A stretch of DNA of 54,115 nucleotides from a bacterium (GTDB taxonomy: Bacteria; Zixibacteria; MSB-5A5; WJJR01): contig DATMBC010000017.1 of NCBI GenBank assembly GCA_035559435.1, forward strand, positions 75,848 through 129,962. Reading direction: 5' to 3'. Each line of letters opens with the position of its first letter. Position 1 is the stretch's first letter. The notes below the pieces were generated by a model. It saw only the letters and a program-made list of their open reading frames with translations. It did not search any database and was not told the origin of the DNA. The position numbers and the translations under genes are program-made. Below are positions 17,258 through 52,559 of the stretch, piece by piece.

Positions 17258-17271
17258 ACGGAGCGTACGTC

Positions 17272-24539: not shown

Positions 24540-24560
24540 TCATTCAAAGGAGAACGACAG

Positions 24561-24602
24561 ATGAACAACACCAGACGGCAGTTTCGATGGAGGCGGCGAT
24601 GA
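24561..24602 (+). CDS. 13-codon Arg-rich leader ORF overlapping the tolC start
   Basis: AAAGGAGA (24546-24553) stands 7 nt before an ATG that opens MNNTRRQFRWRRR and then a TGA. That TGA overlaps the ATG of the TolC-family gene as ATGA. This ORF has the best ribosome site in the gap, better placed than that of tolC itself, and six of its 13 codons encode Arg. Likely roles are translational coupling or an attenuator-type leader. There is no proof that it is a functional peptide. Confidence 0.5.
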   Translation: MNNTRRQFRWRRR

Positions 24603-35536: not shown

Positions 35537-35545
35537 GGACGCCGC

Positions 35546-38500
35546 GTGCTGACAAAACTGATCGACTTCACGATCCAGCAGCGCTGGCTCATGATCTGTT
35601 TGGCCGGGTTGCTGGTGATCGCCGGACTGGTCGCGCTGACGCGGCTGCCGTTCGACGCTTTCCCCGACACGTCGCCGGTAATGGTTCAGGTCAACGTGTC
35701 CGCCCCCGGCTGGGCGCCGGAGGAAGTGGAACGGCAGATCACCTATCCGATCGAGCGGGAGTTGTCCGGCCTGGCCGGACTGACCGAGGTCCGTTCGATC
35801 TCCAAGTATGGCCTTTCGCAGGTCAATCTGGTCTTTCGCGATGAGATCGACATCTACCTCGCCCGTCAGCAGACCACCGAACGATTGGTCGGGGTCGAAC
35901 TCCCCGACGGCGTCCCGGCTCCCAAGTTGGGACCGATCTCGACCGGACTGGGCGAAGTGTTCCATTACATCCTCGTGGGCGATCTCGAAGACCCCACCGA
36001 GGCGCGCACGATCCAGGATTGGATCATTAAGCCGCAATTGCAGGCGGTCCCCGGGGTGGCCGAGGTCAACAGTTGGGGGGGATTCGAAAAGCAGTACCAG
36101 GTGCTGTTCGATCCGAACCGTCTGGTCCAGTACGGCCTCGCCTTGACTGACGTGGTCGAGCGCCTGCGCGCCAACATCGGCAACGTCCCCGGCGGCGAGA
36201 TGATTCGCGGCGGCGAGCAGACGCTGGTGCGCGGCGTCGGGGTCGTGAACGACCGCCGCCAGATCGAGGAACTGGTGATCGCCGAACGCGATGGCACGCC
36301 GGTGCACATCCACGACATCGCCGATGTCGTGATCGGGCACGAAATCCGTCGCGGCGCGACCACCTACGACGGCCGCGGCGAGGCGATCCTCGGGTTGGGC
36401 TTCATGCTCACCGGCGAGAACTCGCGCGATGTCACCGAACGGCTGGCGCGGCAGTTGGAGGAGGCCAGGAAATCGCTGCCGCCGGGCATCGAGGCGCGGG
36501 TGGTCTATCAGCGCACCGACCTGGTTGGGCAGATTCTGGGCACGGTGCAGCACAACCTGTTTTTCGGCGCCATCCTGGTCATTGCCGTGCTGTTTGTCTT
36601 CCTCGGACACCTGCGCGCCGGGCTGATTGTCGCCTCGGCGATCCCGCTGTCGATGCTGTTTGCCTTCGACATGATGACGCGGCTGGGGATCGCCGGCAGT
36701 CTGATGAGTCTGGGGGCGATCGACTTCGGGCTGGCGGTCGACAACGCGGTGATCCAGGTGGAAAACGCCGCGCGCCGGTTGGCGGTGATGGAAGCGGGCC
36801 GCTCGCGCCTGCAGGTGGTCCGTGACGCCATCCTCGAGGTGCGCAAGCCCACGCTCTTCGGCGAATTGATCGTGATGCTGGTCTACCTGCCCATCCTGAC
36901 ACTCGAGGGCATCGAAGGCAAGATGTTTCGTCCGATGGCGCTCACCGTGGTGCTGGTGCTGATCGGATCGCTCATCATGTCGTTTTCGGTGATCCCGGCG
37001 ATGATCGCGATCTTCATGAAACCGGGCGCGAAGGAACGCGAGCCGCGGCTGGTGCTGTGGTTGCAGCGGGTCTACCGTCCGGCGCTCGACTGGGCGTTGC
37101 GGCACGGACGGGCGGTGCTGGTCACGGCGCTCGTGATGTTGCTTGTGGGCATCGGATTGTTCACACGGTTGGGATCGGAGTTCATCCCGCGTCTGTCCGA
37201 GGGAACCATCGCGATCAATCTGGTGCGTCTGGCGGGGGTCTCGCTGGAGCAGTCGATCGATTACAGCACCCGCATTGAGCGCGCCCTGCTGGCAAAGTTT
37301 CCCGATGAGATCGCGCACATCTGGTCGCGCACCGGCACCGCCGAACTGGCCACCGACCCGATGGGGCTGGAACTGACCGATGTGTTCATAACGCTCACGC
37401 CGCGCGACCAGTGGACGCGCGCCGGCAATCAGGCCGAACTGGTCGCGTTGATGGATCAGGAACTGGCCGATCTGCCCGGCATGAACCGGGTCTTCACCCA
37501 GCCGATCGAGATGCGCGTCAACGAGCTGATCGCCGGCATCCGCGCCGATGTTGGGATCAAGATCTTCGGCGACGATCTCGACATTCTCGAACAGAAAGCC
37601 GATGAGATCGCGGCGCTGGCCGAAACGATCAAGGGGAGCGCCGATGTGACCGTCGAGCAGTTGACCGGACAGCCGCAGTTTGACGTGGCGGTCGACCGGC
37701 ATCGGATTTCGCGCTATGGGCTTTCGGCGCGCGATGTGCTCAACTACACGGAGAGTTTCGGGGGGATCGAAGTCGGCGAAGTCTACGAGGGCCAGCGGCG
37801 GTTCGATCTGGCCGTCAAGATGGCGCCCGCCTGGCGGACCGCGCCCGAGGACATCGAACGCATTCCGATCGTGTCGCCGTCCGGCGCCCTGGTCACCATG
37901 GACCAGGTAACCATCCCGAAGGTCTCAACCGGGCCTTCGACCATCACCCGCGAATGGGGCAAGCGGCGCGCGGTGGTGCAATGCAATGTGCGCGGCCGCG
38001 ATGTCGGCTCGTTTGTCGACGAATTGCGTCGGCGCATCGGCGCGGAGATCGCCTTCCCGCCGGGGTATTTTGTCCGCTTTGGCGGACAGTTTGAAAACCT
38101 CGAACGGGCGCGCACACGCCTGGCGATCGTGGTGCCGATCGCGCTGCTTTTGATCTTTGGGCTTCTCTACTGGACTTATCGCTCGGTGCGCGATGCCATC
38201 CTCATCTTCACCGGCGTGCCGCTGGCGGTACTGGGCGGGATTGTCACCCTCGCGGTGCGCGGGATGCCCTTCTCCATTTCGGCCGGGGTGGGATTCATCG
38301 CGCTCTCCGGGGTCGCGGTGCTCAACGGGCTGGTGCTGGTTTCGACCATCAAGCGAATGCGCGCGGAGGGCATGGATCTCGAACCGGCGATCCGCGAGAG
38401 CGCGGTCACGCGCCTGCGCCCTGTGCTGATGACGGCGCTGGTGGCGGCCTTCGGTTTCATCCCGATGGCGCTCTCGCATGAGGTCGGCGCCGAGGTACAG

Positions 38501-38614
38501 CGTCCGCTGGCCACGGTGGTGATCGGCGGCATCCTGACATCGACCGCGCTGACGCTTTTGGTGTTGCCGGTGCTGTACCGGGTGTTCGGCCGCACGTCGG
38601 AGGGGGAGATGTGA
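35546..38614 (+). CDS. heavy-metal efflux RND pump, CusA/CzcA family
   Basis: A 1022-residue 12-helix pump. It has FTIQQRWLMICLAGLLVIAG, then PFDAFPDTSPVMVQVNV, and the HME-specific RDEIDIYLARQQTTERL. The TM4 relay SLGAIDFGLAVDNAVIQVEN keeps the two Asp and the Glu of CzcA-type pumps, with Asn where CzcA has Gly. The second half ends with the VLNGLVLVSTIKRMR block. Probable substrates are Cu(I)/Ag(I) or Zn/Co/Cd. It starts at a GTG with GAGGA 7 nt upstream, 9 nt after the adaptor stop. No TolC gene lies in this operon; the one at 24599 could serve. Confidence 0.92.
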   Translation: MLTKLIDFTIQQRWLMICLAGLLVIAGLVALTRLPFDAFPDTSPVMVQVNVSAPGWAPEEVERQITYPIERELSGLAGLTEVRSISKYGLSQVNLVFRDEIDIYLARQQTTERLVGVELPDGVPAPKLGPISTGLGEVFHYILVGDLEDPTEARTIQDWIIKPQLQAVPGVAEVNSWGGFEKQYQVLFDPNRLVQYGLALTDVVERLRANIGNVPGGEMIRGGEQTLVRGVGVVNDRRQIEELVIAERDGTPVHIHDIADVVIGHEIRRGATTYDGRGEAILGLGFMLTGENSRDVTERLARQLEEARKSLPPGIEARVVYQRTDLVGQILGTVQHNLFFGAILVIAVLFVFLGHLRAGLIVASAIPLSMLFAFDMMTRLGIAGSLMSLGAIDFGLAVDNAVIQVENAARRLAVMEAGRSRLQVVRDAILEVRKPTLFGELIVMLVYLPILTLEGIEGKMFRPMALTVVLVLIGSLIMSFSVIPAMIAIFMKPGAKEREPRLVLWLQRVYRPALDWALRHGRAVLVTALVMLLVGIGLFTRLGSEFIPRLSEGTIAINLVRLAGVSLEQSIDYSTRIERALLAKFPDEIAHIWSRTGTAELATDPMGLELTDVFITLTPRDQWTRAGNQAELVALMDQELADLPGMNRVFTQPIEMRVNELIAGIRADVGIKIFGDDLDILEQKADEIAALAETIKGSADVTVEQLTGQPQFDVAVDRHRISRYGLSARDVLNYTESFGGIEVGEVYEGQRRFDLAVKMAPAWRTAPEDIERIPIVSPSGALVTMDQVTIPKVSTGPSTITREWGKRRAVVQCNVRGRDVGSFVDELRRRIGAEIAFPPGYFVRFGGQFENLERARTRLAIVVPIALLLIFGLLYWTYRSVRDAILIFTGVPLAVLGGIVTLAVRGMPFSISAGVGFIALSGVAVLNGLVLVSTIKRMRAEGMDLEPAIRESAVTRLRPVLMTALVAAFGFIPMALSHEVGAEVQRPLATVVIGGILTSTALTLLVLPVLYRVFGRTSEGEM

Positions 38615-39402: not shown

Positions 39403-42192
39403 ATGCCTTGCGGCTCTCTCGTTGGTGCCCTCTTCGTAGGTACAGCCCTGCTAATAAGTGGCGGCGACGCGCAAGCCAACTTGCACGTTCAGTCCCACCC
39501 CGATTCCATCCTGGCGGACGCGTACGCATCCGAGCGCGCCTTGGATTACCCGCGTGCCGAGTCGCTCTACGCCGTTGCCACGTCACGACTTGAATCCGGC
39601 CGTGTTTCCACGGAGCGATTGCCCGAAGTCTACGCCCGACTCGCCGGGGTCCAACTCCGCCTGTGTAGTTTTGCGGCGGCGCGGAGCACCTACGAATGGG
39701 CCCTTTTGTATGCAATCACACAACGGGGCGGGGAGCCGCTGGCGGTCGCGGGCATTCTGAACGGGCTGGGACGGTTGGAGTTTCTGCGCGGCGACCTGGG
39801 GCGGGCCGAGCGGCTGTACCTGCGCGCGCTGCGTCTGGCGGAGGCGGGCGGCGGCCCCGAGCATCCGCGGGCGGCCGAAGTCCTGCGGTCACTGGCGGAA
39901 CTGGAACGCGCCGAGCGTCGCTTCAACGAAGGCGAAGAGCATGCACGCCGCGCGCTGGACATTCAAGTGAAGAACCACGAGGTCACAGCCGAGGAGCTGG
40001 CGCTGACCTATGCGGCGCTTGCCTTCAACATGCGTGGCTGGGGGGGGTATAACGCCGCCGATCAACTCTTCGGAACGGCGCTTGCGGTGGCCACCCGCGC
40101 CTACGGGGAGAACCATCCGGTGTGCGCCGCCATCCACAACCACATTGCGGGGCTGGCGGTCAACCTTATCGATGGGAACAAGGGGCAGATCCATGGCGAC
40201 AAGGCCCTGGCCATCATCGAGCGCACACTCGGTCCCGACCATCTCGAAGCCGGGTACATCCACGCGAATCTGGGACGGGCCTATATCTACCTGGAGCAAT
40301 TCGACCGGGCGATGGCGCACTACCGGCGATCGGAAGAAATCCTCGTTCGCCATCTGGGAATCGACCATCCCGACGTCGCCGGGACCATCGGCTGGATTGC
40401 GCATCTGTACCGCTTCATGAAGCGTCCCGCCGAGGCCATGCGCGAGGCCGAGCGCATGTTCGCCATTGCCCACTCAAGGTTCACCCGCGCCTCGCTGCAA
40501 CTGGAGGATCGCTCCGCCTACGACTTTACCATGGTCTTGTACTATGCCATGTCGGGATACGCTGCCGCCCACTTCGAACACCCCAACCCGGGCGCCGCGG
40601 CGACACGCCGGCTGGCGGAAATGGTCATCGCCTACCAAGGCATCGCCAGCGACAACACCTACTTCGGCAATCAGTTCCTGCGCGCCCAGGACGATGATTC
40701 GATGCGCCGCCTGGGGGCGCATCTGGCCGATGTGCGCGCCGAACGCGCCGCGGTGCACTACCGCGATCCGATGGGGATGGACGCCACCGTCCGCCGGATG
40801 CAGGACAGTCTGACACGGGTGGAGCAGGACTTGCTGGCCGAGCTGGCCGAACGGCGGCTGGCGGCCGGCGATTCGGCTTACTGGACGGTGAACCTCGATT
40901 CGGTCTGCGCGGCGATTCCCGACGGCGCCTGCTTCGTCAATCAATTCGGCTATTGGTACATGCTGACGAACACGAAAGTCTATGGCGAGCAGTCGCGGTT
41001 TGCCGCGTTCATCCTCGACCGCAAAGGTTTGCGAGGATTCACCCATCTGGCGAATGCAGACAGCACGCATTACCAAGTAAATCGGTTGAGCACCCTGCTG
41101 CAACAACGTTCACGGCAGGCAAGCTGGGATGCGCCGTCATGGCAGGAGTTTGATTCGCTCAGTCTGGCATATACAACGCAGACGTGGAGTCCGATCGAGC
41201 GTTTCGTGCGACCGAATGAGATGGTTCTACTTTGTCCCGATCTATATGCGTCACTTCTGCCCGCGGGAATGTTGCGCGACAGCAGCGGCTACCTGATCGA
41301 GGATCACACGTTTCAATACATCCCGGCCGCGCGGAATCTCCTGCGGTTCCGACGGGAGTCGATGGTCGGTTCCGGTCTCTTCGCATTGGGCAACCCCGAC
41401 TTCGACGCCCTGCCCGAAGAACGGCTGGCGGTGCTCGACAACCAGGAAGCGTCGCCGTTGACGGGCGAACCGGTGGAGTACGCGGTGCGCAACATCCGTC
41501 CCTTCTGCGAGCGGCTGGACAGTCTGCATCTGCCGCCGCTGCCGAACACCGAACGGGAGATCCAACGGTCGGCGCAGCGCTGGAGCGAGCAACGCGGCGG
41601 TCCGGCACGCACCCTGGTGCAGGCCGCGGCCAACGAGGAGCAATTCAAACGCCTGGCGCATGGAAATCGCGTGCTTCACCTTGCGACCCATGGATACTTC
41701 GTGGAACACGACTGCCGCGGCCCGATACTGTCCGCCAGTGGCGGGTACCAGTTCGGCCCGCTTTTGTATTCCGGGCTCCTGCTGGCGGGAGCGAATCTGA
41801 ATGGGAAGGGCGCCGATGAGGCCGGAGCGGAGGACGGCATCCTGACCTCCCAGGAGGTCGCCGCCACCGATCTGCGCGGCACCAACCTCGTCTTGCTCTC
41901 GGCCTGCGAGTCCGCCACAGGTGAGCCGGCCAACGGACAGGGGCTCTACGGTCTGGCGCGCGCCTTCGAGTTGGCCGGAGCGCGTCAGGTGGTCAGCGCC
42001 CTCTGGCCGGTGACCGACGCCGCGTCGATGGAACTGATGGACCGGATCTTCAGCCAGCCCGATCGCCGCATCGCCGACATCCTGCGCGACTACGCCAGGG
42101 ACCAAATCGAAAAGGATCGGCAGGCCGGACGTCCCACCGATCCCTTCCTCTGGGCGCCGTATGTCGCCTACGGCGACTGGCGCGCCCGGTGA
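39403..42192 (+). CDS. exported TPR-CHAT protein A
   Basis: A 929-residue protein. A signal peptide (LVGALFVGTALLISGGDAQA) is followed by about ten TPR-like helix pairs from about residue 35 to 420, for example LGRLEFLRGDLGRAERLYLR and GYIHANLGRAYIYLEQFDRA. A helical linker leads to a C-terminal CHAT (caspase-like) domain. The catalytic pair is intact: His763 in HLATHGYF and Cys835 in LSACESATG. CHAT proteins are proteases regulated by protein contact through TPRs. The ATG with GGAGG 6 nt upstream is preferred over the upstream TTG. Convergent with an anti-sigma/sigma pair 16 nt away. Confidence 0.88.
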   Translation: MPCGSLVGALFVGTALLISGGDAQANLHVQSHPDSILADAYASERALDYPRAESLYAVATSRLESGRVSTERLPEVYARLAGVQLRLCSFAAARSTYEWALLYAITQRGGEPLAVAGILNGLGRLEFLRGDLGRAERLYLRALRLAEAGGGPEHPRAAEVLRSLAELERAERRFNEGEEHARRALDIQVKNHEVTAEELALTYAALAFNMRGWGGYNAADQLFGTALAVATRAYGENHPVCAAIHNHIAGLAVNLIDGNKGQIHGDKALAIIERTLGPDHLEAGYIHANLGRAYIYLEQFDRAMAHYRRSEEILVRHLGIDHPDVAGTIGWIAHLYRFMKRPAEAMREAERMFAIAHSRFTRASLQLEDRSAYDFTMVLYYAMSGYAAAHFEHPNPGAAATRRLAEMVIAYQGIASDNTYFGNQFLRAQDDDSMRRLGAHLADVRAERAAVHYRDPMGMDATVRRMQDSLTRVEQDLLAELAERRLAAGDSAYWTVNLDSVCAAIPDGACFVNQFGYWYMLTNTKVYGEQSRFAAFILDRKGLRGFTHLANADSTHYQVNRLSTLLQQRSRQASWDAPSWQEFDSLSLAYTTQTWSPIERFVRPNEMVLLCPDLYASLLPAGMLRDSSGYLIEDHTFQYIPAARNLLRFRRESMVGSGLFALGNPDFDALPEERLAVLDNQEASPLTGEPVEYAVRNIRPFCERLDSLHLPPLPNTEREIQRSAQRWSEQRGGPARTLVQAAANEEQFKRLAHGNRVLHLATHGYFVEHDCRGPILSASGGYQFGPLLYSGLLLAGANLNGKGADEAGAEDGILTSQEVAATDLRGTNLVLLSACESATGEPANGQGLYGLARAFELAGARQVVSALWPVTDAASMELMDRIFSQPDRRIADILRDYARDQIEKDRQAGRPTDPFLWAPYVAYGDWRAR

Positions 42193-42207
42193 GCGGATCG
42201 CAAGCGG

Positions 42208-43089
42208 TCAGCGAATAATCGTAAACGGATAGAAAACACGGAATGTGTCGGCCTCGTCGGCAGAGCCTCTGAGTCTGTCTATGTCGCCGCCGGGGACGGC
42301 GGCGCTGATGGCGGCGGTGTAGTCGCCGGAGGCCAGCGTGGCGGTGGCCAGACGGATCACCGCAAAGCCCTGCTCGGCCGCCGTGCGCGAGACCGGCGCC
42401 CGAAACAGTGTCCGGCCATCGTCGTCGACCACGGACGCGACATACTCCCGCCCGGGTTCATAGGGGAACTTCAGTCCCAGCCGGACTGTCGTTTGCTCCG
42501 GCTCCACTTCAATCCGCCAGGCGGCCAGCGAACTGCGGGTCTGTTCTGGCAAACGGATTACATGTTCCAACGCATCGGTGGCAGTGGCGGGAGGTTCGAT
42601 GTCGCTGCGGAGCATCATGCGGGACAGTGGCAGGATCGCCAGAATCAACACCGCCGCGCCGGCCAAGGCATAGGCCACCCCCGGATGCCACAGGAGCCGT
42701 CGGAGACGTGAGAGTCCTCCCGGCCGGGTGTGTGCCGGCGCGGGGACTCGCACCGCCTGATTCAATTCGTTGTAGGTGGCCAGTTCGCCACGGCAAGGCG
42801 CGCAGAAATCCAGATGGATGCCCAGTTGCTCGCGCTCCGCCGCCGGCAATCGTGAGGCATCGGCGGCGTAGAGCGCCAGCCGTTCCGCACTCGGGTGACT
42901 GCTGGTCTCCAGCCGTTCGACTTCGATCAAGTCGGCAAACACGGTCCGGCATTCCTCGAGCCACTGCCGGCAATCGGCGCAACCGGCCAGATGCGCCTCG
43001 ACTTCGCCCCGCTCGGCGGCGGAGAGAGCGCCCGCCGCATACTCGGGTATGCGGTCGATGATCTCGTTATGGTCGGCAGACTGGCTCAT
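42208..43089 (-). CDS. zinc-finger anti-sigma factor A, single-pass membrane protein
   Basis: A 293-residue anti-sigma factor with two ZAS/zf-HC2 modules in tandem: His7...His33-x3-Cys37-x2-Cys40 (HLAGCADC) and His92-x3-Cys96-x2-Cys99 (HLDFCAPC). One membrane helix at about 138-155 follows, then an extracytoplasmic beta-rich domain of about 100 residues ending in VFYPFTIIR. ZAS modules bind and silence ECF sigma factors. The sigma gene is 45 nt upstream on the same strand. The C-terminal domain resembles that of the anti-sigma at 47960. Confidence 0.88.
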   Translation of the reverse strand: MSQSADHNEIIDRIPEYAAGALSAAERGEVEAHLAGCADCRQWLEECRTVFADLIEVERLETSSHPSAERLALYAADASRLPAAEREQLGIHLDFCAPCRGELATYNELNQAVRVPAPAHTRPGGLSRLRRLLWHPGVAYALAGAAVLILAILPLSRMMLRSDIEPPATATDALEHVIRLPEQTRSSLAAWRIEVEPEQTTVRLGLKFPYEPGREYVASVVDDDGRTLFRAPVSRTAAEQGFAVIRLATATLASGDYTAAISAAVPGGDIDRLRGSADEADTFRVFYPFTIIR

Positions 43090-43134
43090 CGCATGGCAAC
43101 CCTCAGGTTTAGTCGGCGGTCCATGACGGCTGTT

Positions 43135-43680
43135 TCATGGCTTTTGCCGCTGTTCGGCCAGCGACCGCAAGAACTTCACCGCCTTGCAGATACGGGTGCG
43201 CGTGGCGCCATAGCTGGCATCCAGCGCCGCGGCGATGTCCCTTAGATCGCGCTTTTCCGCCCACATGGCCACTGCCATCCGGTCCTTGGCGTTCAGTTGT
43301 CCCCAGACGCGGCGCAGACGGATGGCGCGCAGGACCGACCGCAGGCGTTCATCGCCGGTGGGCGCCGGATCGGAGGCCTCGTCGATCTGGGCCGGGTTGA
43401 CATCGGGATTGCGGCGCACTTCGCGCCAACGGTCGCCAATCTTGTTGCGGCAGATCACCTGGATATAGGCGCGCAGCCCGGCGCCGCGGTAACTGCCGTC
43501 GAGCACGCCCTTGAACACGGCCAGGAAGCACTCGCCGGCCAGGTCTTCGGCATCGAGGGCCGAGCCGCGGGTGAGGTAGCGGACCGTGTCAACGATCCAG
43601 CCATACACCAGTTTCGCCGCCTCGGGGTCGCCGTCCCGCAGGCGCGCAACGATTTCGTCGTGCGACGGTATCGACATCAT
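43135..43680 (-). CDS. ECF-like sigma factor A
   Basis: A 181-residue sigma-70-family factor. Region 2 (about 10-85) has LDAEDLAGECFLAVFKGV and LRAYIQVICRNKIGDRWRE, the -10-recognition helices. Region 4 (about 115-175) has LNAKDRMAVAMWAEKRDLRD and a helix-turn-helix IAAALDASYGATRTRICKAV. There is no region 1 or 3. The two adjacent ATGs at 43680 and 43677 have no strong ribosome site. Paired with the downstream anti-sigma A and near TPR-CHAT A. Confidence 0.88.
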   Translation of the reverse strand: MMSIPSHDEIVARLRDGDPEAAKLVYGWIVDTVRYLTRGSALDAEDLAGECFLAVFKGVLDGSYRGAGLRAYIQVICRNKIGDRWREVRRNPDVNPAQIDEASDPAPTGDERLRSVLRAIRLRRVWGQLNAKDRMAVAMWAEKRDLRDIAAALDASYGATRTRICKAVKFLRSLAEQRQKP

Positions 43681-43767
43681 CAGGTGCGAATCGGACCACT
43701 ACAGCAGAGGGGAAAATAGGGGATCGGCGGCCGGCGGGCAATTGCCCAAAGCCCGTGCCCGGAAACG

Positions 43768-43801
43768 GCCACGGGCCGGGGGGTACCCCCCGGCCCGTGG
43801 C
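43768..43801 (-). terminator. perfect 34-bp palindrome
   Basis: Two 16-nt arms (GCCACGGGCCGGGGGG at 43768-43783 and its exact complement at 43786-43801) flank TA. It lies 22 nt beyond the stop of the leftward dockerin-like gene and upstream of sigma A. Strong hairpin without a U-tract; terminator or processing barrier between the two genes. Confidence 0.6.
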
Positions 43802-43822
43802 GTGATCAGAATGCATGGGTGG

Positions 43823-44560
43823 TCAAAGCGGGGCGGATGCCGGGCACGCCAGGCAGAACTCGGTGGCGGGATTGGCGCCGCGGAAGGCGACGTTGACCAT
43901 CTTCACCACGTCGATGACATTGGTGGCGCCGTCGCAGGTTCCGTTCGGCCCGCCGCCGACATCGGTGCGATCGTTCGGACAGAGCGGATTGGGATCGCTC
44001 ATGGCCGCCGCGCCGCGGAAGGCGACATTGATCGTGAGCACCACATCCTGAATGTTGGCGATGACGGCGTCGCAGGCCGGGTCGCCGTGGCAGTCGCAGG
44101 CGCAGGTGGGCGTGGAGCCGCCGGTCGTCGCGCCGTACCAGAACCCCTGACCCGCCGAGGTCGTCGTGTTGTCGGTCATGCCGATGACGTCCTGTCCGAG
44201 GATGTGATGCGATGAATAGCCGGCGCTGGTGGCCACGTCGCCGCCGATCGACACCACCTGCCAGTTGATCTGGTAGGCGGCCGCCGGTGACTGGAACTCG
44301 TTGACCTCAGACGGCGCCGGTTCAGATATCATCGACGGCGCCAGTCCCTCCCTGGAAGGCGCCGTCGAATCGGCCAGATCCGGAGACACTGACGGGGAGT
44401 TGCGGGTATCCGTATCTGGTGCTCCCATCTCAAGTACCGTTTCGACCGGTCGGAGGTTGGCGGGCGGAGCAACGTTTCGCGGATCTTTTTTGACCGCCGC
44501 CGCCACGCTCACCGCCGCCCCGAGCGAGAGGACGCAGAATAGCAGGCCGAATTTCTTCAT
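43823..44560 (-). CDS. exported dockerin-like protein
   Basis: A 245-residue exported protein. Signal peptide (FGLLFCVLSLGAAVSVAAA), a low-complexity Pro/Ser/Glu segment to about residue 90, then a short domain (YQINWQVVSIGGDVATSAGY) that resembles N-terminal modules seen in lineage proteins. The C-terminal Cys-rich repeat pair CDAVIANIQDVVLTINVAFR and CDGATNVIDVVKMVNVAFRG is a dockerin-like double loop. The paired loops probably bind calcium; no cohesin is visible in this window. Its gene follows the larger tail-fibre-like gene on the same strand with 36 nt between them. Confidence 0.78.
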   Translation of the reverse strand: MKKFGLLFCVLSLGAAVSVAAAVKKDPRNVAPPANLRPVETVLEMGAPDTDTRNSPSVSPDLADSTAPSREGLAPSMISEPAPSEVNEFQSPAAAYQINWQVVSIGGDVATSAGYSSHHILGQDVIGMTDNTTTSAGQGFWYGATTGGSTPTCACDCHGDPACDAVIANIQDVVLTINVAFRGAAAMSDPNPLCPNDRTDVGGGPNGTCDGATNVIDVVKMVNVAFRGANPATEFCLACPASAPL

Positions 44561-44596
44561 GATTCACCTCGTGTCATTGGCGTCGCTATCCCGCGG

Positions 44597-46933
44597 TTAG
44601 TTGTTGGCGATCACAAACCAGTTGGCGCCGTCGCTGACGACCGTGACGTACTTATTGCTCGCGGAGAGCGAATAGATGATGGCGCCGTCGATGGTGCCGC
44701 CGGCGCTGAGCACGGTCACCGCGCCGGGGCCGCCGTCGATCTTCTTGACCGTGATCTGTCGTCCGGGGCAGGTCGACGCGGCCGGGATCGTGATGGTCGC
44801 GGGGGTGCTGCTGACCAGGGCCACGCTGTTGGCAGACGACAACGTCGCGCTGCCCGCAAAGGTGGCCACATGCGTGGCGATCGGGCCGTTGACATGCAGG
44901 GCGCTGGTCGGCGTGTTGGTGTTGATGCCTACGTTGCCGGAAGCGCGGATGAGGAATTGATCCATTCCGCTCGATGAGAAGTCCGCGTCGCTGTGATCGG
45001 CCCAAACAAATGAACCATCATGATTGGCCTTGGCGCGGCGGCCGGACGCCATCGCGTAATCACCTGGAGCCTCGTTGGCGTTGCCGCCGGGGATCGCTGC
45101 GAAATCACCGTCCGCGATGTTACGGCGACCTCCGACAACCGCTGCGGCCAGGCCACGCGCCATGTTGCGCTCAACGCTGTTGCCCGTCTCTCCGCCACCG
45201 CACACCACGGAGAATGGCCCCTCGGCAAGTGACCAGGATCCACCACCAACAAAACCGCCTTCGCCGGTGACCGCGCAATCCACGCCGCCGGCTATCGTAC
45301 CGAGTCGTGCGGTCACACGGTTGGCCTGGCCGCCGCCCACTGTCGCAAACGTGCGCGTGACAAGGTGTTGAGATCCGCCACCGATTGTCGCCGCTCCCGG
45401 ATTCGGCTCCGGATCATCGGTCAATCGAATCGTGTTGAGGTACCCGCCGCCGATCACGCAATGGAAGGCGCCGCCGCCGGAATCGACTACTAAATTGAAG
45501 CGACCGGAGACTACCGTGTTGTTCGCAAAGCGGATTGAGTCGGCCGAACCGCCAAGGATGGCGCAATCGCCCGCCCCCTCGAGGAAGTGATCAGTCCCAA
45601 AGGCCACATTCGCATTGCCACCATAGACGCTGTTGCTGTAACCGATCGCCGACGAGCGTTGCGAGCCAACCAGATTGTCTTCGCCGATCGCAACAGTGTT
45701 GTCGGCCGATAGTGTGTTGTTCTTACCAAACGCGGTCGAGGTCGTGGCGGTGATGGTATTGCATTCGCCAACAGCGAATGAACTGATCGCGGTGGACAAA
45801 TTGTTGTCCGGTCCCACCGCATTGTTCTCTGATGTGATGGGCCCCAAGTCGCTTGGATTGCCGTCACCGCATGCTTGCACGTCCTTGTTTGGATTCAGCG
45901 CGCGCGCCGAAACATTTATGCTGGTTGTGGAAACCAAACCCGTGTTCGGGTTGACCGATGTCAGCACTTCCGCCGTTCCGGCTTTCCGCACGACCAGGCC
46001 GGAGAGCGGATTGTACTCGAACAAGTCGGTGCCGGTCGCCAGATCGCGGATGCGGAATCCCTTGGCCGAGAAGAAACCGCGGCTGGTCGAGGCGGCCTTG
46101 GCGGTGGAGAAGTCGAACATTTCCAACTGGCCACCCTCGGCGCCGCTGTAAAGCGACAGCACGGTGTCATCGGGTCCGGTGCCGTAAATCACATATCCGT
46201 CGCGTCCCGCCTCGGCGCGCAGTTGCATGGCGTTGATGTCCTTGGTGCCGGCGCCGGTGGACCATCGAGTCGATGTCGCGCTGGACTGGGAGATATTCCC
46301 GCCCTGATCGCGAATGCCAAGCGTGGGACCATTGGGGCCGGAGACGGTGGCCGACATCAATTCCGTCCCGGAGGCATCGGTGGCGCGGAACACCAGTTGA
46401 TCGGCCGGGCCGACGATGATGGTGTCGCCGGCGAGACTGACCAGGGTCAGCTGCGCCGCCTGCGCCGCTTCAGCGTCCTTGTCGAAGGCCGCTGTGGAAC
46501 GCAACGTGAGGTTGCCCTCCATCGTGCCGCCGGTGGAGCCGTCGACGGTGCTGACACGGCGCGAATAGGCGCTGGCCGCCAACTGCGTGCGCGGCGACAT
46601 CTCGGGATCGGCGCCCACTCGGATGCCCAGCCAGCGATCGGCGCCGGCGAAGACCGCATCCGCGATCGGCGTGTTGTCGCCCAAGAGCACGCTGACACGC
46701 CCCGCCGCATCGGGTGTGACGGTGCGTGTCTCCGTCCACACCGCGTTGCCGCCGCTGCCGGCGTCGTAGATGGTGAATGTGACCGAGACCGGCGCGGTGA
46801 CCGGATCGCCGGATGCCGTTTGCAGCACGGCTTGGTAACTGAGTTTGCTGGGCGCGGCGGCGCCATAGGCCAAGACAGTCGTCAGGACCAGCGCGGTTCC
46901 GGCCAGATACGAGAACAGATCGCGACAGCGCAT
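44597..46933 (-). CDS. exported tail-fibre/YadA-head-like repeat protein
   Basis: A 778-residue exported protein. The signal is followed by KLSYQAVLQTASGDPVTAPV, the 'fiber protein' opening common in FCB-type bacteria. Residues 130-400 contain longer beta repeats. From about 440 to 690 a left-handed beta-roll repeat runs, for example NSVYGGNANVAFGTDHFLEG and ATVGGGQANRVTARLGTIAGG, as in trimeric autotransporter heads. It then has GNVGINTNTPTSALHVNG, a tail-fibre junction, and ends ANWFVIANN. There is no YadA-type membrane anchor. AGGAGGAACC precedes the ATG. Confidence 0.8.
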   Translation of the reverse strand: MRCRDLFSYLAGTALVLTTVLAYGAAAPSKLSYQAVLQTASGDPVTAPVSVTFTIYDAGSGGNAVWTETRTVTPDAAGRVSVLLGDNTPIADAVFAGADRWLGIRVGADPEMSPRTQLAASAYSRRVSTVDGSTGGTMEGNLTLRSTAAFDKDAEAAQAAQLTLVSLAGDTIIVGPADQLVFRATDASGTELMSATVSGPNGPTLGIRDQGGNISQSSATSTRWSTGAGTKDINAMQLRAEAGRDGYVIYGTGPDDTVLSLYSGAEGGQLEMFDFSTAKAASTSRGFFSAKGFRIRDLATGTDLFEYNPLSGLVVRKAGTAEVLTSVNPNTGLVSTTSINVSARALNPNKDVQACGDGNPSDLGPITSENNAVGPDNNLSTAISSFAVGECNTITATTSTAFGKNNTLSADNTVAIGEDNLVGSQRSSAIGYSNSVYGGNANVAFGTDHFLEGAGDCAILGGSADSIRFANNTVVSGRFNLVVDSGGGAFHCVIGGGYLNTIRLTDDPEPNPGAATIGGGSQHLVTRTFATVGGGQANRVTARLGTIAGGVDCAVTGEGGFVGGGSWSLAEGPFSVVCGGGETGNSVERNMARGLAAAVVGGRRNIADGDFAAIPGGNANEAPGDYAMASGRRAKANHDGSFVWADHSDADFSSSGMDQFLIRASGNVGINTNTPTSALHVNGPIATHVATFAGSATLSSANSVALVSSTPATITIPAASTCPGRQITVKKIDGGPGAVTVLSAGGTIDGAIIYSLSASNKYVTVVSDGANWFVIANN

Positions 46934-47337
46934 TGCGGTTCCTCCTGTTGGGTCCCTGGGTGCATTGTGAATCGTCTCATCTCGCCCAGAGTCCCGCGGC
47001 GGACAGACCACGGCCGTGCGGATTGTCTCCGCCACAAGGACTCTGGCATTGTTGGCGACTCTCGGACGCGACTGCGACGGCAAGACCGGCGTCCCTGCCT
47101 GCGCGGCGCGTGCGGTCACCCGCACGCGACCGGAATCATCCGGATTCCTGTCAGATGGTGCATCGGCGAGGAAAACTGTTACACATTGCGAGACGGGCGC
47201 TTGACGGCTGTCGCGGCCACATGGCTGTTACCCATTGTGCAATGCGGACTTGCGGCGGGGCCAATCAGTGGTTAAAATTGCGGTACGAAAGTGATCTCCG
47301 GCCAGTAACCTGATTTTGGGGCACATCAATACCGCGA
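46934..47337. other. 404-nt divergent intergenic region between the tail-fibre-like gene and sigma B
   Basis: No gene with a ribosome site is seen on either strand. It must hold the divergent promoters of the leftward tail-fibre-like gene and the rightward sigma B gene. I find no clear -35/-10 pair or long repeat. Confidence 0.5.
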
Positions 47338-47949
47338 ATGACGCTGTCAGGCATGCCTCCCGGTAACCGCGATGTCGAACTGGAACAGGTGATCGCCGGG
47401 TTCCTGCGCGGCGACTCCACCCAGTTCCAGATCATCCGGCGGCAGATTGCCCGTCTGGTCGATCTCTGGTACTCGGCGCGCACCGCCGAGCGGGAGGACT
47501 TGGTCGCCGACACGCTCAAGAGTCTACTGGAAAACCTGCAGGCAGGGCAGTTTCAGGGGACGACCCTGAAGTCGCTCAACAGCTACATCTATGGCATGAC
47601 GCGCTTCAAGGTCATGCGGGCGGTCCAGCGGGCGCGTCACAACGCGCCGCTGCCGGATGCCGAGGTCCTGGAGACACTGCCGGCGCCGCTGACCGGGGAC
47701 CAGCATCGCGAGGCCGCGCACCGGCAATTGCTGGCCAAGATCTACGCCGCGCTCAACCCGACCTGCCGTGAACTTCTGACCCTGAAGTTTGCGCTGGGCT
47801 GGTCGGACCAGGAGATCGCCGACCACCGCAAAATGACAAAAAACGCCGTCTCGACGGCGGTGTCGCGTTGCATCCGGCGGGCGCAGACGCTGGATTTTGT
47901 CCGGGAGATCCTGTACCAGAAGCCGCCCTACGGGCACTATGAGGAATGA
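47338..47949 (+). CDS. ECF-like sigma factor B
   Basis: A 203-residue sigma-70-family factor. Region 2 (about 15-95) has AEREDLVADTLKSLLENLQAG and LNSYIYGMTRFKVMRAVQ. Region 4 (about 130-190) has LNPTCRELLTLKFALGWSDQ and the HTH EIADHRKMTKNAVSTAVSRC. ATG 47338 or 47353 may be the start. Followed directly by a zinc-finger anti-sigma, with a slight overlap possible. Paralogue of sigma A at 43135, with the same neighbours in mirror-image order. Confidence 0.88.
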   Translation: MTLSGMPPGNRDVELEQVIAGFLRGDSTQFQIIRRQIARLVDLWYSARTAEREDLVADTLKSLLENLQAGQFQGTTLKSLNSYIYGMTRFKVMRAVQRARHNAPLPDAEVLETLPAPLTGDQHREAAHRQLLAKIYAALNPTCRELLTLKFALGWSDQEIADHRKMTKNAVSTAVSRCIRRAQTLDFVREILYQKPPYGHYEE

Positions 47950-47959
47950 GGGGGCGAAC

Positions 47960-48772
47960 GTGGAATGCCGTAACGACGAGATCGCATCCCTGTTGCCGGA
48001 TTATTTCAGCGGGCATCTCGACAACGACAATCTTCGGAGGGTCGAGGCACACCTGCAGGAATGCGGCGTGTGCCGGGACAGCGTGAAGACCATGTCACTG
48101 CTCGCTTACTCCGGCGACACGGGCCGCGCGTCGCACCCGGCCAAGCATGTGCTGGCCCTGTACTACCGCAACCCGTCGCTTTTGCCCGACGGGATCGCCG
48201 AACGGATCGCCGCCCACCTCGCCGGCTGCCGGGACTGCGCCGGCGAAATCGCCATCCTGCAGGAGATGGAAAACGAACTGCGGCGCTCGGTCGGGGGAGG
48301 GGTCGAAACCGAGAGCGTCATCCACCGGCTGACGGTGCGCTATGGACGCTGGGCCGCCTATGCCGCGGCCGCCTGTCTGCTGGCGATGGTCGGGTTCCGC
48401 GTGCTGGTCACCGAGGACACGGGAGGCGGCTCCGCGCCGGTCTATCAACTGGCCGAGGCGCGGCGCGGCGATGCGTCGCCAAGCGCGATCACGCGCCCCT
48501 CGGGAGCGGACGTATTGCGCTTTGCCGTGCCCTTCTATCACCTGCGCGACGAAAACGATTACACCGTGTACATCACCGATGCGCAGGGCCAGACCACCCT
48601 GGCGAAGGCGATGAAGATCGACTTCCCCGAGCCCGGCCGGTTGCTGGTCCGCTTCGACGCGGAACATATCCCCGACGGCGATTGGCAATTGGTGGTGAAG
48701 GAGTCGCGTCGCGGCGCCGCGGCTGATTCGAATGTGGCCTACTTCCCGTTTCGTCTGTCCACCCAGCGTTAA
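47960..48772 (+). CDS. zinc-finger anti-sigma factor B, single-pass membrane protein
   Basis: A 270-residue anti-sigma factor. ZAS module 1: Cys3...His31-x3-Cys35-x2-Cys38 (HLQECGVC). Module 2: His86-x3-Cys90-x2-Cys93 (HLAGCRDC). One membrane helix at about 132-149, then a beta-rich domain ending in VAYFPFRLSTQR. The GTG at 47960 has GAGGGGG upstream and puts Cys3 where zf-HC2 proteins have it; an ATG at 47939 would overlap sigma B by 11 nt. Its stop overlaps that of the convergent TPR-CHAT B gene by 4 nt. Confidence 0.87.
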   Translation: MECRNDEIASLLPDYFSGHLDNDNLRRVEAHLQECGVCRDSVKTMSLLAYSGDTGRASHPAKHVLALYYRNPSLLPDGIAERIAAHLAGCRDCAGEIAILQEMENELRRSVGGGVETESVIHRLTVRYGRWAAYAAAACLLAMVGFRVLVTEDTGGGSAPVYQLAEARRGDASPSAITRPSGADVLRFAVPFYHLRDENDYTVYITDAQGQTTLAKAMKIDFPEPGRLLVRFDAEHIPDGDWQLVVKESRRGAAADSNVAYFPFRLSTQR

Positions 48773-51700
48773 TCGAGCGGTTCCCACGCCCCCACCGCAA
48801 CGAAGGCGCCCCAGAGATAGGGGTGGTCGGGCTGGCCGCGACGGCGCAACTCGGCGATGGTCGCCAGTTGGGAATCGCGCATGAGCGTGGGCAGATTGTC
48901 GCGCGAGCCGGCATAGAGACGGCGCATGAAGGACGAGGTCATCCGGTCGGAGACCGTCCAGAGTGAACTGATCACGGTGCCGACGCCGGCCATCTGAAAC
49001 GCCCGCTGCAGACCGAAGATCCCCTCGCCGCTGCGTGGCGCCCCCAGGCGGGTCTCGCAGGCGGAGAGAACCGCCCAGCGCACCCCATCCAGCGGCAACG
49101 AGGCGACTTCTTCGGCGGTCAAAAGCCCGTCTTCCAGTCCGGCGTCGGCGCGGCAGGCGGCCCCGGCTAGGCAAAGCCCGCTGAGCAAAAGTGGATTCTC
49201 CCCGATCATGGCGTCAAACGGACCCGTCTCACCGGCCACCGGGTGTGGGCGGCAGCGATCGCCCAGATAAAACCCATGCGTGGCCAGATGCAGCACCCGC
49301 CGTCCGCGGGCATGGCGTTTGACATTCTCCTCGGAAGCGGCGGCGCCGGCGAACACCTCGACCGGCTCGGACGATTGCGCGCGCCAGGCCATCTCCACGC
49401 CATCGGCCTCGGAGCGGGTGCCGGGCAGACGCGCCAGTTGACGCTGGGTCAGCAGATCGCAGGAGGCGCGCAGGGTGACAAAGTCGGAGGGCGCCTCGGT
49501 GGACGCGGCCCAGACGGTGGCCGGTTGCGCCTGCGCGCGCAGACGCGCATCAGCGTCGAAATCCGGATCGCAGACCACCAGTGCGCCGGTCCCGGACGCC
49601 GCACCGCGCGGATCGAGCAGGCTGCGCCCGCAGGCGAGATAATGCAGCGGCGTGCTCTCGATGAGAAACCGGCCGTCGGCATCCACCAGCGATGCGAACG
49701 ATACCAGATGCAGCGACGCGTCGGGTGCAACCAGCATGATCTCCCCCGCCGGAATCGCGCCGGCAAGCGGTTGCCAGATGCGGTCGTAAAGGGCGCGGGC
49801 AAGAGTTGTGTACTGCCGCTGATCACTCTCGGTGGGCATGGCGCCCTGCGCGCTCAACGCAATCATGTGTGATTGGCCGTCGGCCACCAGCGAATCGATC
49901 GACTCCGCCGCGCCGAGGGCGACCAGCCGCAGAGCGCCCGAACGCGGCATCGCCAGCGCCGCGTATTCCTCCCGTCCTTCGGCGGCCGCGTTGGCAAAAC
50001 GGAAGTACTCGATGAGCGCTGCGCCGGCGGGCATGGCCGCGCGCACCCCGGCGACCGTGATACGCGACGCGGAAGGGACCGCCGCCAGGGTTCCGAGACG
50101 GCGTGTCAGCCGATCTTCCAGGTCTTCCTTGGCATGATGAACGCTGTCAACCAACGCCGTGTACTCGGCGGCCGCCAGCGTACCCGGACCGCGCAGATAG
50201 AGCGTGGCCAAACGATGCCGCGCATAGTGCAGAGAATCGCGCAGGGCGACCATCTCCGGGGCGCTGGCACGTCGGGTGTCGCGTTCGCGCTCGAAGATGC
50301 GGTTGGAGACCGCCCCTTTGGCGGCCAGCAGCAAGCCGGTTGTCGAATCGGTCAATGCCCCCGCGGTAAGGCACGCCGACAAGAGCACGTCACGTGTGCG
50401 ATGCATGGCCTGCTCAAAGCGCAGCGCCTGATGCTCGCTTAAGACGCGTCCTCCCTCATCGAGCAGACGCAGACGCAGATCCAGCGCGGCGGCGGCCAGC
50501 GGCATGGCGGCCGACGCATCGCCGCGCACGATGAGCTGTCGCGCATATTGCTCGCGGGCATCGGCCAGCTCGGCGAGATTCAGCCCGCCATAACTGGAAT
50601 CCAGAGTGAAGATCTGGCGATATGCGGTCACCGCCCGATCCCAGTTGCCGCGTTCGGTCTCGATACGCGCCAAAAGCGTCAGATCGGCGAAGCGTTCAGG
50701 ATTGGGAGCGGCGGGCGACAGGTCACGAAGCGCCAGTGCCTGCGTGATGGCGATCGCGGCCTCGTCACGCTGTCCGGCGGCCAGACAGACGCGTGCCTGA
50801 GTGGACAGCGTCGCCGGCGACGGCGGACCCTGTGTCAGCGCATTCTCGCGTCCGATGGCCAGCGCGCGGGTGATCGCCGAATCGGCCGGCGCCAGATGGC
50901 CGAGGAGCAGCTCCACCCGTGCCAGGTCTTCCAATGTTGCGGCGACCGCCGGATGGGTGGGTCCAAGGAAAAGCGACTGGATGTCCACCGCCTCGCGCAA
51001 CGCCGCGGCGGCATCGTCCGGACGGCCCCAGGTTGTCTGAAGCGAGGCCAGATCGCGCAGACAGGCGGCGGAAAGCGAATGCATTTCGCCCAGCGACTCC
51101 CGTGTCAACGCAATCGCCGTGTGGAAGTTCTCATCGGCCTCGGCGTAGCGTCCCTCGTCGAAGTAGAGTTGCCCCAGCTGGCGGTGCGACTCGGCCAGAA
51201 GCGGCGCGGAACGCTCGATGGCCGCCTCGCGGATGCGCAACGCTTCACGGTAGGCGCGTTCGGCCCGGCGGTACTGCCCGGTGGCGTGGTAAATACGGGC
51301 GAGATTGATGTGCATGTAAGCGACTTCGGGATGCCCTTCGCCACGCGCCTTGCGGCGCAGCTCCAACGCCTGCAACGCCAGTTGTTCGGCTTCCTGATAC
51401 CGTCCCTGCGCGCGCCGCACCGAACACATGCGGTCGAGATTGCCCTGATGCTCGATGTGCTCCGGCGCCAGATGGAGACGGTTGGCGGTCCAGGCCGAAT
51501 CCCACAATGCCCAGGCGATCGTGCGTTTGCCCAGACGGGCGTGGTAGTCGCCGAGACGGTCGGCGACGTAGGCAAATAGGGTGTCGGTGACGCCATAGCG
51601 CCGGCGCGCCAATTCGAGGGCATGCGAAGCCAGCGCGATCGCCGAATCCTGCATGGCCACGGGGTTGGCGGTGTGGGGAATGCCGAGTCGTTTCGAGGCG

Positions 51701-52344
51701 AACTCCGCCAATGTCACGAGGGAGCGGATGGCCCAGCGGGCATCGGCGTCGGGATGGGCGGTTTGGATCGCAACGATGCGTTCGTGAAGCCGTTGCACGT
51801 CGGCCAAAAGCCAGTTGGATTCACATAGATGAGTGAACCGCCACAACAGTTCCAGTGAATCCGGAGGGCAATCTTCACTCAGCAGCCGGCATCGTTCGCG
51901 CGCTCGCTGCGCCGGCTTGCCGTCGAGAATCTGGTCGGCGCCGACAGCCATCAGCAGACACGGGCGAAGTGACAAGTCGAGATCAGCGGCGCCGCCGTAG
52001 GCCCCCGCCTCCTCCCAGTAGGCCAGCGCGCGCGCATAGTCGCGATCGCGCAAGGCAAAGTCCCCCATGAGGGCGAGCGTTTGGCGGCAGGCGGCGGAAT
52101 CGCAGACGGCCGCGGCGCTTAATTCGACAAGGATGGCCTCCGCCAGCCCCAACGCCGAATCCTGCGCCCGGTCGGCAAAGGTCGAATCGGCATAGCCCTG
52201 GTGCGAGACCGCATCGGCCCACTCCAGCCGCACCGCCCAGGAGGGCGGCTGCCCGGCCGCCGCCGGCGCCAGGACGGCCAGCCAGCCCAGCGACACCAAA
52301 GCCGCCAAGCCGCACCGCCGCGCTATAGTGCGGGGAGTCTTCAC
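48769..52344 (-). CDS. exported TPR-CHAT protein B
   Basis: A protein of about 1191 residues. Signal peptide (CGLAALVSLGWLAVLAPAAA), then TPR-like helix pairs over most of residues 60-640, such as AYMHINLARIYHATGQYRRA and SHRQLGQLYFDEGRYAEADE. The C-terminal CHAT domain has His1023 in HLATHGFY and Cys1096 in LSACETRLG, so both catalytic residues are present. The GTG at 52344 begins immediately before the signal peptide; an ATG at 52467 would add 41 unlikely residues. Larger than TPR-CHAT A by about 260 residues, all in the TPR part. Confidence 0.86.
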   Translation of the reverse strand: MKTPRTIARRCGLAALVSLGWLAVLAPAAAGQPPSWAVRLEWADAVSHQGYADSTFADRAQDSALGLAEAILVELSAAAVCDSAACRQTLALMGDFALRDRDYARALAYWEEAGAYGGAADLDLSLRPCLLMAVGADQILDGKPAQRARERCRLLSEDCPPDSLELLWRFTHLCESNWLLADVQRLHERIVAIQTAHPDADARWAIRSLVTLAEFASKRLGIPHTANPVAMQDSAIALASHALELARRRYGVTDTLFAYVADRLGDYHARLGKRTIAWALWDSAWTANRLHLAPEHIEHQGNLDRMCSVRRAQGRYQEAEQLALQALELRRKARGEGHPEVAYMHINLARIYHATGQYRRAERAYREALRIREAAIERSAPLLAESHRQLGQLYFDEGRYAEADENFHTAIALTRESLGEMHSLSAACLRDLASLQTTWGRPDDAAAALREAVDIQSLFLGPTHPAVAATLEDLARVELLLGHLAPADSAITRALAIGRENALTQGPPSPATLSTQARVCLAAGQRDEAAIAITQALALRDLSPAAPNPERFADLTLLARIETERGNWDRAVTAYRQIFTLDSSYGGLNLAELADAREQYARQLIVRGDASAAMPLAAAALDLRLRLLDEGGRVLSEHQALRFEQAMHRTRDVLLSACLTAGALTDSTTGLLLAAKGAVSNRIFERERDTRRASAPEMVALRDSLHYARHRLATLYLRGPGTLAAAEYTALVDSVHHAKEDLEDRLTRRLGTLAAVPSASRITVAGVRAAMPAGAALIEYFRFANAAAEGREEYAALAMPRSGALRLVALGAAESIDSLVADGQSHMIALSAQGAMPTESDQRQYTTLARALYDRIWQPLAGAIPAGEIMLVAPDASLHLVSFASLVDADGRFLIESTPLHYLACGRSLLDPRGAASGTGALVVCDPDFDADARLRAQAQPATVWAASTEAPSDFVTLRASCDLLTQRQLARLPGTRSEADGVEMAWRAQSSEPVEVFAGAAASEENVKRHARGRRVLHLATHGFYLGDRCRPHPVAGETGPFDAMIGENPLLLSGLCLAGAACRADAGLEDGLLTAEEVASLPLDGVRWAVLSACETRLGAPRSGEGIFGLQRAFQMAGVGTVISSLWTVSDRMTSSFMRRLYAGSRDNLPTLMRDSQLATIAELRRRGQPDHPYLWGAFVAVGAWEPLD

Positions 52345-52484: not shown

Positions 52485-52559
52485 TGGTAGCGCTACGGGG
52501 ATTCGAACCCCGGTTTGATGGCTGAGAACCATCCGTCCTAACCCCTAGACGATAGCGCC
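52485..52559 (-). tRNA. tRNA-Glu (anticodon CTC)
   Basis: A full cloverleaf on the minus strand. The acceptor is GGCGCTA/TAGCGCT (seven pairs, the first a G-U wobble). The D arm is GTCT-AGGGGTTA-GGAC, the anticodon arm GATGG-TTCTCAG-CCATC with loop bases 34-36 CTC, and the T arm CGGGG-TTCGAAT-CCCCG. The 3' CCA is encoded (52485-52487). It reads GAG. It lies 140 nt upstream of TPR-CHAT B on the same strand. Confidence 0.93.

Follow-up and report, generated by a model that had tools for sequence, protein, structure and literature searches.

Why should an exported caspase-like protein be encoded, twice over, directly against an ECF sigma factor and its membrane anti-sigma? The question is raised by a 54,115-nucleotide stretch of DNA (the window) from a 3.0 Mb genome of Candidatus Zixiibacteriota, in which two cassettes, A and B, each place an ECF sigma/zf-HC2 anti-sigma pair tail-to-tail with a gene for an exported TPR-CHAT protein (Table 1). 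A sequence-only reading had described two such sets, each with an ECF sigma, a double-zinc-finger anti-sigma and an exported TPR-CHAT protein, and Pfam, TIGR02937 and the HxxxCxxC motifs bear this out for all six genes. The mirror-image layout that it reported holds for A and B, yet other layouts also occur, and it does not define the set. Likewise, the fibre-like and dockerin-like genes said to be flanked by the cassettes are genuine ORFs, but their names rest on weak profile matches.

Table 1. Features of the two cassettes and the region between them (window positions)
Feature	Position	Strand	Details
CHAT A, exported TPR-CHAT caspase-like protein	39403..42192	+	929 aa; His763/Cys835; Pfam CHAT 1e-50 + TPR
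Anti-sigma A	42208..43089	-	zf-HC2 7e-15; two zinc-finger modules, one TM, ~135-aa outer domain
ECF sigma A	43135..43680	-	TIGR02937 44 bits; Sigma70_r2 2e-6
17-bp perfect inverted repeat	43768..43801	-	between dockerin-like gene and sigma A
Dockerin-like exported protein	43823..44560	-	245 aa; matches L055:5600-6190
Fibre-like exported protein	44597..47125	-	842-aa ORF; weak LbR/YadA_head; MAT fibre N-domain 9e-5
Two direct repeats CTGTTACMCATTG	47176..47237		separated by 49 bp, in the interval from fibre to sigma B
ECF sigma B	47338..47949	+	TIGR02937 47 bits; divergent from fibre gene
Anti-sigma B	47939..48772	+	zf-HC2 1e-10; two zinc-finger modules, TM segment, outer domain an Ig-like beta-sandwich
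CHAT B, exported TPR-CHAT protein	48769..52344	-	1191 aa; His1023/Cys1096; Pfam CHAT 2e-58

Both sigma factors score above the TIGR02937 cut-off, yet they are the weakest two among the 15 sigma matches of the genome. In each cassette sigma r2/r4 regions and an HxxxCxxC anti-sigma are combined in one operon, with genes that overlap in B and stand 45 bp apart in A. Each anti-sigma has a pair of HxxxCxxC motifs and a single hydrophobic segment, and an AlphaFold2 model of anti-sigma B (pLDDT 61 overall, 70-83 in the outer strands) returns Ig-like fold matches. Anti-sigma A and the stop of CHAT A are separated by 15 bp, and the 3′ end of CHAT B overlaps anti-sigma B by 4 bp. The N-termini of both CHAT proteins are signal-peptide-like, signal peptides and transmembrane segments having been called herein from hydropathy only. 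Both proteins qualify as caspase-fold CHAT peptidases by their CHAT domain and its His-Cys dyad, and the dyad is present in 101/101 phylum CHAT sequences, as well as in 79 from outside the phylum. For CHAT A, modelled with AlphaFold2 at pLDDT 86, the best fold matches are Csx29 chains, which are nearest, and separase, with DdvA also matched.

Genome-wide, there are only 2 CHAT, 5 zf-HC2 and 15 sigma genes, and both CHAT genes are those of the cassettes; that each adjoins a zf-HC2/sigma pair is therefore far beyond chance. Between cassettes, identity is 28 % for the CHAT proteins (across 815 aa), 33 % for the anti-sigmas (across 108 aa) and 21 % for the sigma factors, which marks them as old paralogues and rules out recent duplication of one cassette. 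With regard to an island insertion at tRNA-Glu, synteny is uninformative, as the tRNA and the RND-efflux gene are on separate contigs in the relative G004.

The three-gene set is conserved across Candidatus Zixiibacteriota: both sigma and anti-sigma adjoin CHAT in 55 of the 67 well-flanked long CHAT genes of the phylum, and adjacency has persisted while the layout altered at least 12 times on the CHAT tree. Neither partner is beside CHAT in 9 of the 67 (~13 %), indicating that CHAT is able to act without them, and two relatives within the window's genus have no CHAT at all. Outside the phylum, both partners are adjacent in just 3 of the best 78 CHAT relatives. Within it, an intracellular class (sigma, soluble anti-sigma-like protein, CHAT and an S8 subtilase-dockerin) stands beside the exported class, whose anti-sigma is a canonical zf-HC2 membrane protein and which, in the loci examined, has no subtilase gene after the cassette. 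Exported CHATs are paired exclusively with membrane-spanning anti-sigmas (46/46), whilst the partners of intracellular CHATs are soluble and often zinc-less (no transmembrane segment in 28/28 intact examples), although this contrast represents a single evolutionary switch. The N-terminal parts of the two anti-sigma classes match in profile comparison (96 %), which does not, however, support homology between the outer domain and the soluble class's C-terminal domain (probability 5 %).

The three proteins also diverge together, with correlations of.79 for sigma/anti-sigma,.65 for sigma/CHAT and.76 for anti-sigma/CHAT. When swapping was done within genomes among exported cassettes, the observed values were reached in 0, 5 and 0 of 1000 trials, respectively, so that CHAT co-evolves with the pair rather than independently of it. 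CHAT is tracked better by the outer anti-sigma domain (r.62) than by the zinc-finger domain (.45; genome-bootstrap difference.04 to.29), whilst sigma is tracked better by the zinc-finger domain (r.84) than by the outer domain (.72); this pattern is present in both anti-sigma length classes. Conserved neighbourhood and co-evolution thus lend strong support to the earlier suggestion that the three genes form a working unit.

Building on gene content, conservation, co-divergence, matched compartments and the retained dyad, we propose that each cassette works as a unit of transmembrane signalling, which probably couples events outside the inner membrane to the activation of surface-protein genes. 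The zf-HC2 domain of the anti-sigma would keep the ECF sigma at the inner face of the membrane, with the outer Ig-like domain being watched by the exported TPR-CHAT, a caspase-fold protease of the same compartment. Once the TPR part meets its cue, the CHAT domain would cleave or destabilise the outer domain, after which the usual follow-on proteases would dismantle the anti-sigma and release the sigma. The free sigma would then transcribe the adjoining large exported surface-protein genes (here the fibre and dockerin-like genes), and probably its own operon too. To this chain, from CHAT acting on the outer domain to transcription of the neighbouring secreted-protein genes, we give a slightly better than even chance of being correct. 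CHAT-protease control, as put forward in the sequence-only reading, is favoured by the domain-level co-divergence, the conserved dyad and the precedents of DdvA and Craspase; cleavage itself, for which no cut site is recognised, is probably the form that CHAT action takes, but is a step that we infer.

Other arrangements of the same parts can be envisaged. CHAT could be an output, switched on by the sigma and then processing or anchoring the adjoining large exported proteins in a sortase-like or PorU-like manner. Type IX secretion involves caspase-fold (clan CD) proteases, CHAT has a promoter region to itself in tail-to-tail cassettes, and some exported CHATs without sigma/anti-sigma sit directly beside large exported proteins (bearing a sorting tail in locus L124, and none in L081). 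We nevertheless consider such a role unlikely, as co-divergence ties CHAT specifically to the anti-sigma outer domain and DdvA joins anti-sigma and CHAT in one chain. That chain could also be read as the model for a split system, in which the exported CHAT acts without proteolysis, as a sensor or co-inhibitor bound to the outer domain, and ligand binding rather than cleavage alters the anti-sigma. The TPR scaffold makes up most of the protein, co-divergence suits binding as well as cleavage, and no signal is known for the anti-sigma DdvA (PMC4374960); yet an invariant dyad within and beyond the phylum is unexpected for a pure binding role, leaving this reading distinctly improbable.

A Craspase-like defence or suicide module, with an invader-triggered CHAT activating the sigma regulon, would accord with Csx29 as the nearest fold match of CHAT A and with the same three roles in Csx29/Csx30/CASP-sigma. 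It has very little to recommend it in a genome devoid of RAMP genes, where an exported CHAT cannot meet a cytoplasmic RNA effector and the genes recurring next to the cassettes encode large exported surface proteins rather than defence functions. Two unrelated operons lying side by side by coincidence, as the rarity of the association outside the phylum might suggest, can be virtually dismissed, being refuted within the phylum by adjacency, its retention through layout changes, and co-divergence.

The proposed control of the sigma by the exported CHAT can be set against several known systems. DdvS/DdvA of Myxococcus xanthus (PDB 8rot, 8rw5) similarly has an ECF sigma under a transmembrane anti-sigma linked to TPR-CHAT; DdvA keeps the dyad region (ATHG...ACE) and is matched by both fold and profile searches, with weak sequence similarity (E=0.008). 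In DdvA, however, anti-sigma, transmembrane segment and TPR-CHAT are one polypeptide, whereas cassettes A and B employ two genes, with CHAT having its own signal sequence; no such fusion occurs among 191 CHATs sampled. In type III-E Craspase, the TPR-CHAT protease Csx29 cleaves the sigma inhibitor Csx30, relieving sigma inhibition, and both are encoded together with an ECF sigma, CASP-sigma (PMC10028731). Craspase is cytoplasmic and RNA-guided by Cas7-11, whereas here CHAT is exported and the inhibitor is a zf-HC2 membrane protein. The CHATs fall outside the Csx29 family (18.9 bits for NF041237, whose cut-off is 300), and the whole genome is without a PF03787 (RAMP) match, so that Cas7-11, and with it type III CRISPR, is excluded. 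ECF54 genes are reported to lie near CHAT, subtilase and carboxypeptidase domains, a context resembling the phylum's intracellular class, but are described as lacking an anti-sigma (PMC8999054), unlike the exported class. Finally, as in RseA/DegS and RsiW/PrsW regulated intramembrane proteolysis, an extracytoplasmic protease is proposed to read the outer domain of a membrane anti-sigma, the difference being that the first protease here would be supplied by the cassette itself, as a caspase-fold TPR-CHAT.

More tentatively, and with somewhat less than even confidence, we suggest a class of transmembrane signalling, present throughout the phylum, whose zinc-finger anti-sigma has as its dedicated first protease a caspase-fold enzyme that is exported and encoded alongside the pair. 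To this stand-alone three-gene design, fused DdvA and the CRISPR-borrowed Csx29/Csx30/sigma would be related as specialised forms. If so, a caspase-type protease would join the short list of anti-sigma-releasing proteases, and a stand-alone, vertically maintained unit would give a role to exported TPR-CHAT proteins, which are common in several phyla. Csx29/Csx30/sigma, which looks like an isolated CRISPR oddity, would gain in the cassette a plausible relative that follows Craspase logic outside CRISPR.

As to the cue, the envelope stress suggested previously is unsupported as such; surface or secretion sensing fits better, because of the large exported surface proteins that recur beside the cassettes. 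Among the 33 exported cassettes outside G032, 9 have a tail-bearing exported protein encoded divergently from sigma; such proteins account for ~1-2 % of genes. In the window, the fibre-like protein has a start with a signal-like sequence at ~46933, whilst the dockerin-like protein has no Pfam match of its own, and in its matching locus Dockerin_1 is below threshold. A sigma-70 promoter and terminator scan revealed no excess, and no promoter motif common to the sigma/CHAT or sigma/fibre upstream regions rose above shuffles. The 17-bp inverted repeat is a possible terminator, and the CTGTTACMCATTG repeats, of which the window holds just these two copies at ≤2 mismatches, are possible regulatory sites.

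Both cassettes in the window comprise genes for an ECF sigma factor, a zf-HC2 anti-sigma factor and a TPR-CHAT protein, with the CHAT gene lying tail to tail with the sigma/anti-sigma pair and the pair reading toward it; the CHAT and anti-sigma genes are separated by 15 bp in cassette A, and overlap by 4 bp in cassette B. ORFs were called mechanically, and signal peptides and membrane segments were assigned by hydropathy. Each anti-sigma has a pair of HxxxCxxC modules, a single transmembrane segment and an outer domain, whilst both CHAT proteins have a signal-like N-terminal stretch and retain the catalytic His and Cys. The window is placed in the phylum Candidatus Zixiibacteriota, since locus L133, which carries that annotation, shares its gene layout with a contig of the relative G071. 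The window's genome holds only these two CHAT genes, along with five zf-HC2 genes and 15 sigma hits. Paralogue identities of 21–33 % show that cassettes A and B are old relatives of one another. Amongst the genomes of relatives, all three genes of cassette A match cassettes in G005 and G006, whilst the sigma and anti-sigma of cassette B match G003 and G013 (sigma also G071), with its CHAT nearest to that of G013. Immediately upstream of CHAT B, and sharing its strand, lies a tRNA-Glu gene; supporting evidence for it as an island marker was looked for, and none was found.

Features of the window and loci of the compared sets (L, fetched CHAT loci)
Feature	Location	Positions	Strand	Remarks
Zinc carboxypeptidase (M14)	window	9732-11597	-	neighbour of Tricorn-like protease
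Tricorn-like protease	window	11652-14963	-	WD40-like propeller + S41 domain
Lysyl-oxidase-like protein	window	21788-23722	-	PF01186, 3e-15; bacterial genome
RND-type efflux gene sets (two)	window	24395-30215; 34031-38614		outer-membrane channel, membrane-fusion, AcrB/CusA-like pumps
CHAT A	window	39403-42192	+	cassette A
Anti-sigma A	window	42208-43089	-	cassette A
Sigma A	window	43135-43680	-	cassette A
Dockerin-like gene	window	43823-44560	-
Fibre-like gene	window	44597-47125	-
Sigma B	window	47338-47949	+	cassette B
Anti-sigma B	window	47939-48772	+	cassette B
CHAT B	window	48769-52344	-	cassette B
tRNA-Glu (CTC)	window	52485-52559	-
Sigma/anti-sigma pair, then three tandem exported CHAT genes	L118 (genome G065)	6529-17510		one pair
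Intracellular class	L065, L068-L071, L093, L095, L098, L100, L104 and others			S8 subtilase-dockerin in several
Set outside phylum	L134			Ignavibacteriae
Set outside phylum	L183, L205			Saprospiraceae

CHAT genes were detected with the Pfam CHAT model alone, and neighbourhoods, fetched only for the better-scoring matches, were scanned with profiles made from the window's genes. Amongst the 67 long CHAT genes flanked by 2.5 kb or more on either side, both partners adjoin CHAT in 55, sigma only in 3 and neither in 9. At three loci where anti-sigma went undetected (L050, L089 and L123), a differing, unrecognised gene is found next to sigma; these genes form a shared family of ~310–360 aa, located upstream of CHAT in L050 and L123, which looks like a variant and is possibly a third kind of anti-sigma. 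Outside Candidatus Zixiibacteriota the set occurs in only 3 of the 79 best GTDB CHAT relatives, setting aside L133, a member of the phylum amongst those 79, and the unit is thus largely phylum-specific rather than general to exported CHATs. Within the clade of the window's CHATs, six loci (L072, L081, L082, L084, L124 and L132) harbour exported CHATs with neither sigma nor anti-sigma nearby; in L124 and L081 at least, CHAT sits immediately behind genes for large exported proteins.

There are three predominant layouts: sigma, anti-sigma and CHAT all co-directional; the convergent arrangement seen in the window; and, in rare cases, CHAT placed upstream of the sigma/anti-sigma genes. At least 12 layout changes map onto the CHAT tree (FastTree, local support values), and the feature that is kept is the adjacency of the genes, not their orientation. 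In 14 of the 20 convergent sets counted, the genes overlap or lie within 33 bp.

The phylum has two classes of set. In the exported class, signal-like CHATs accompany a membrane anti-sigma in 46/46 cases, and in the intracellular class, signal-less CHATs accompany a soluble anti-sigma-like partner in 28/30 (in both exceptions CHAT is cut short at, or close to, the end of a contig), although this perfect match of compartments reflects one switch on the tree and hence a single independent observation. The N-terminus of the soluble partner is related to the zinc-finger domain, with the zinc ligands gone in many members, and the intracellular class is often followed downstream by an S8 subtilase-dockerin gene. 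A similar context, with CHAT, subtilase and carboxypeptidase, has been reported for ECF54, which is described as a group without an anti-sigma (PMC8999054); the intracellular class may correspond to that context, with a zinc-less anti-sigma perhaps overlooked there.

Pairwise distances amongst sigma, anti-sigma and CHAT correlate with r of.79,.65 and.76 (78 sets). When partners were swapped within genomes holding several exported sets, the observed value was reached in only 0, 5 and 0 of 1000 trials, and species kinship alone is therefore insufficient as an explanation. With the anti-sigma split at its membrane segment, CHAT is tracked better by the outer domain (r.62) than by the inner zinc-finger domain (.45), whilst sigma is tracked better by the inner (.84) than the outer (.72); a genome bootstrap of these differences gives.16 (.04 to.29) for CHAT and.12 (.04 to.22) for sigma. 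The same ordering is seen within short and within long anti-sigmas separately. Correlative though it is, this pattern has the topology that one would predict for a sigma held on the inner side of the membrane and a CHAT acting on the outer side.

The structure of CHAT A, which is predicted well (pLDDT 86), finds its best PDB fold matches in chains of Csx29, the CHAT protease of Craspase, followed by separase and by DdvA (8rw5, 8rot), a transmembrane anti-sigma in which the ATHG and ACE motifs are retained. Sequence searching with a CHAT-domain profile likewise recovers Csx29, at E=3e-4, and DdvA, at E=0.008. Whilst the model of anti-sigma B is of poor quality as a whole (pLDDT 61), it shows a pair of helical modules, a membrane helix and an Ig-like sandwich, and the zinc-finger part of the anti-sigma matches anti-sigmas of solved structure (3hug, RsiW, RskA). 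DdvS/DdvA, Craspase and ECF54 each possess part of the design seen here; in the open-access literature, no description was found either of a separate, exported TPR-CHAT paired with a membrane anti-sigma of the zf-HC2 type or of the spread of this unit through Zixiibacteriota.

The three genes very probably constitute a functional unit, as the sequence-only reading had proposed, and CHAT and anti-sigma are likely to act on each other. In the best-supported mechanism, towards which we lean slightly from sequence and modelling, the TPR part of the exported caspase-fold protease would read an outside cue, CHAT would act on, and probably cut, the anti-sigma outer domain, and the sigma so released could turn to surface-protein genes. 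Two rival readings give CHAT another role: it might be a sensor that has no cutting role, or itself an output of the regulon, working on surface proteins.

As for the putative targets, the gene divergent from sigma often encodes a large exported protein in exported cassettes: products of 400 aa or more that begin with a signal-like stretch occur in 14/35 of these vs 2/23 intracellular cassettes (Fisher p=0.015). A type IX-like sorting tail is present on the divergent gene in 10/35 exported cassettes, the tail family accounting for ~1–2 % of genes in most genomes tested, and example products contain dockerin, SdrD-B, RTX or laminin-G domains. The window's own fibre gene is divergent from sigma B, and two direct repeats, CTGTTACMCATTG, lie in the interval separating the two genes; in L055, a fibre/dockerin pair is likewise divergent from its sigma. 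A shared promoter word was looked for and none was found, hence it is by inference that exported surface-protein genes are taken as the sigma regulon. One genome of 3.6 Mb (G032) holds at least 150 Por_Secre_tail sorting-domain genes, vs 18–64 in the other genomes searched. Within the window, both RND-type efflux sets fit inside a 15-kb stretch immediately to the left of the cassettes.
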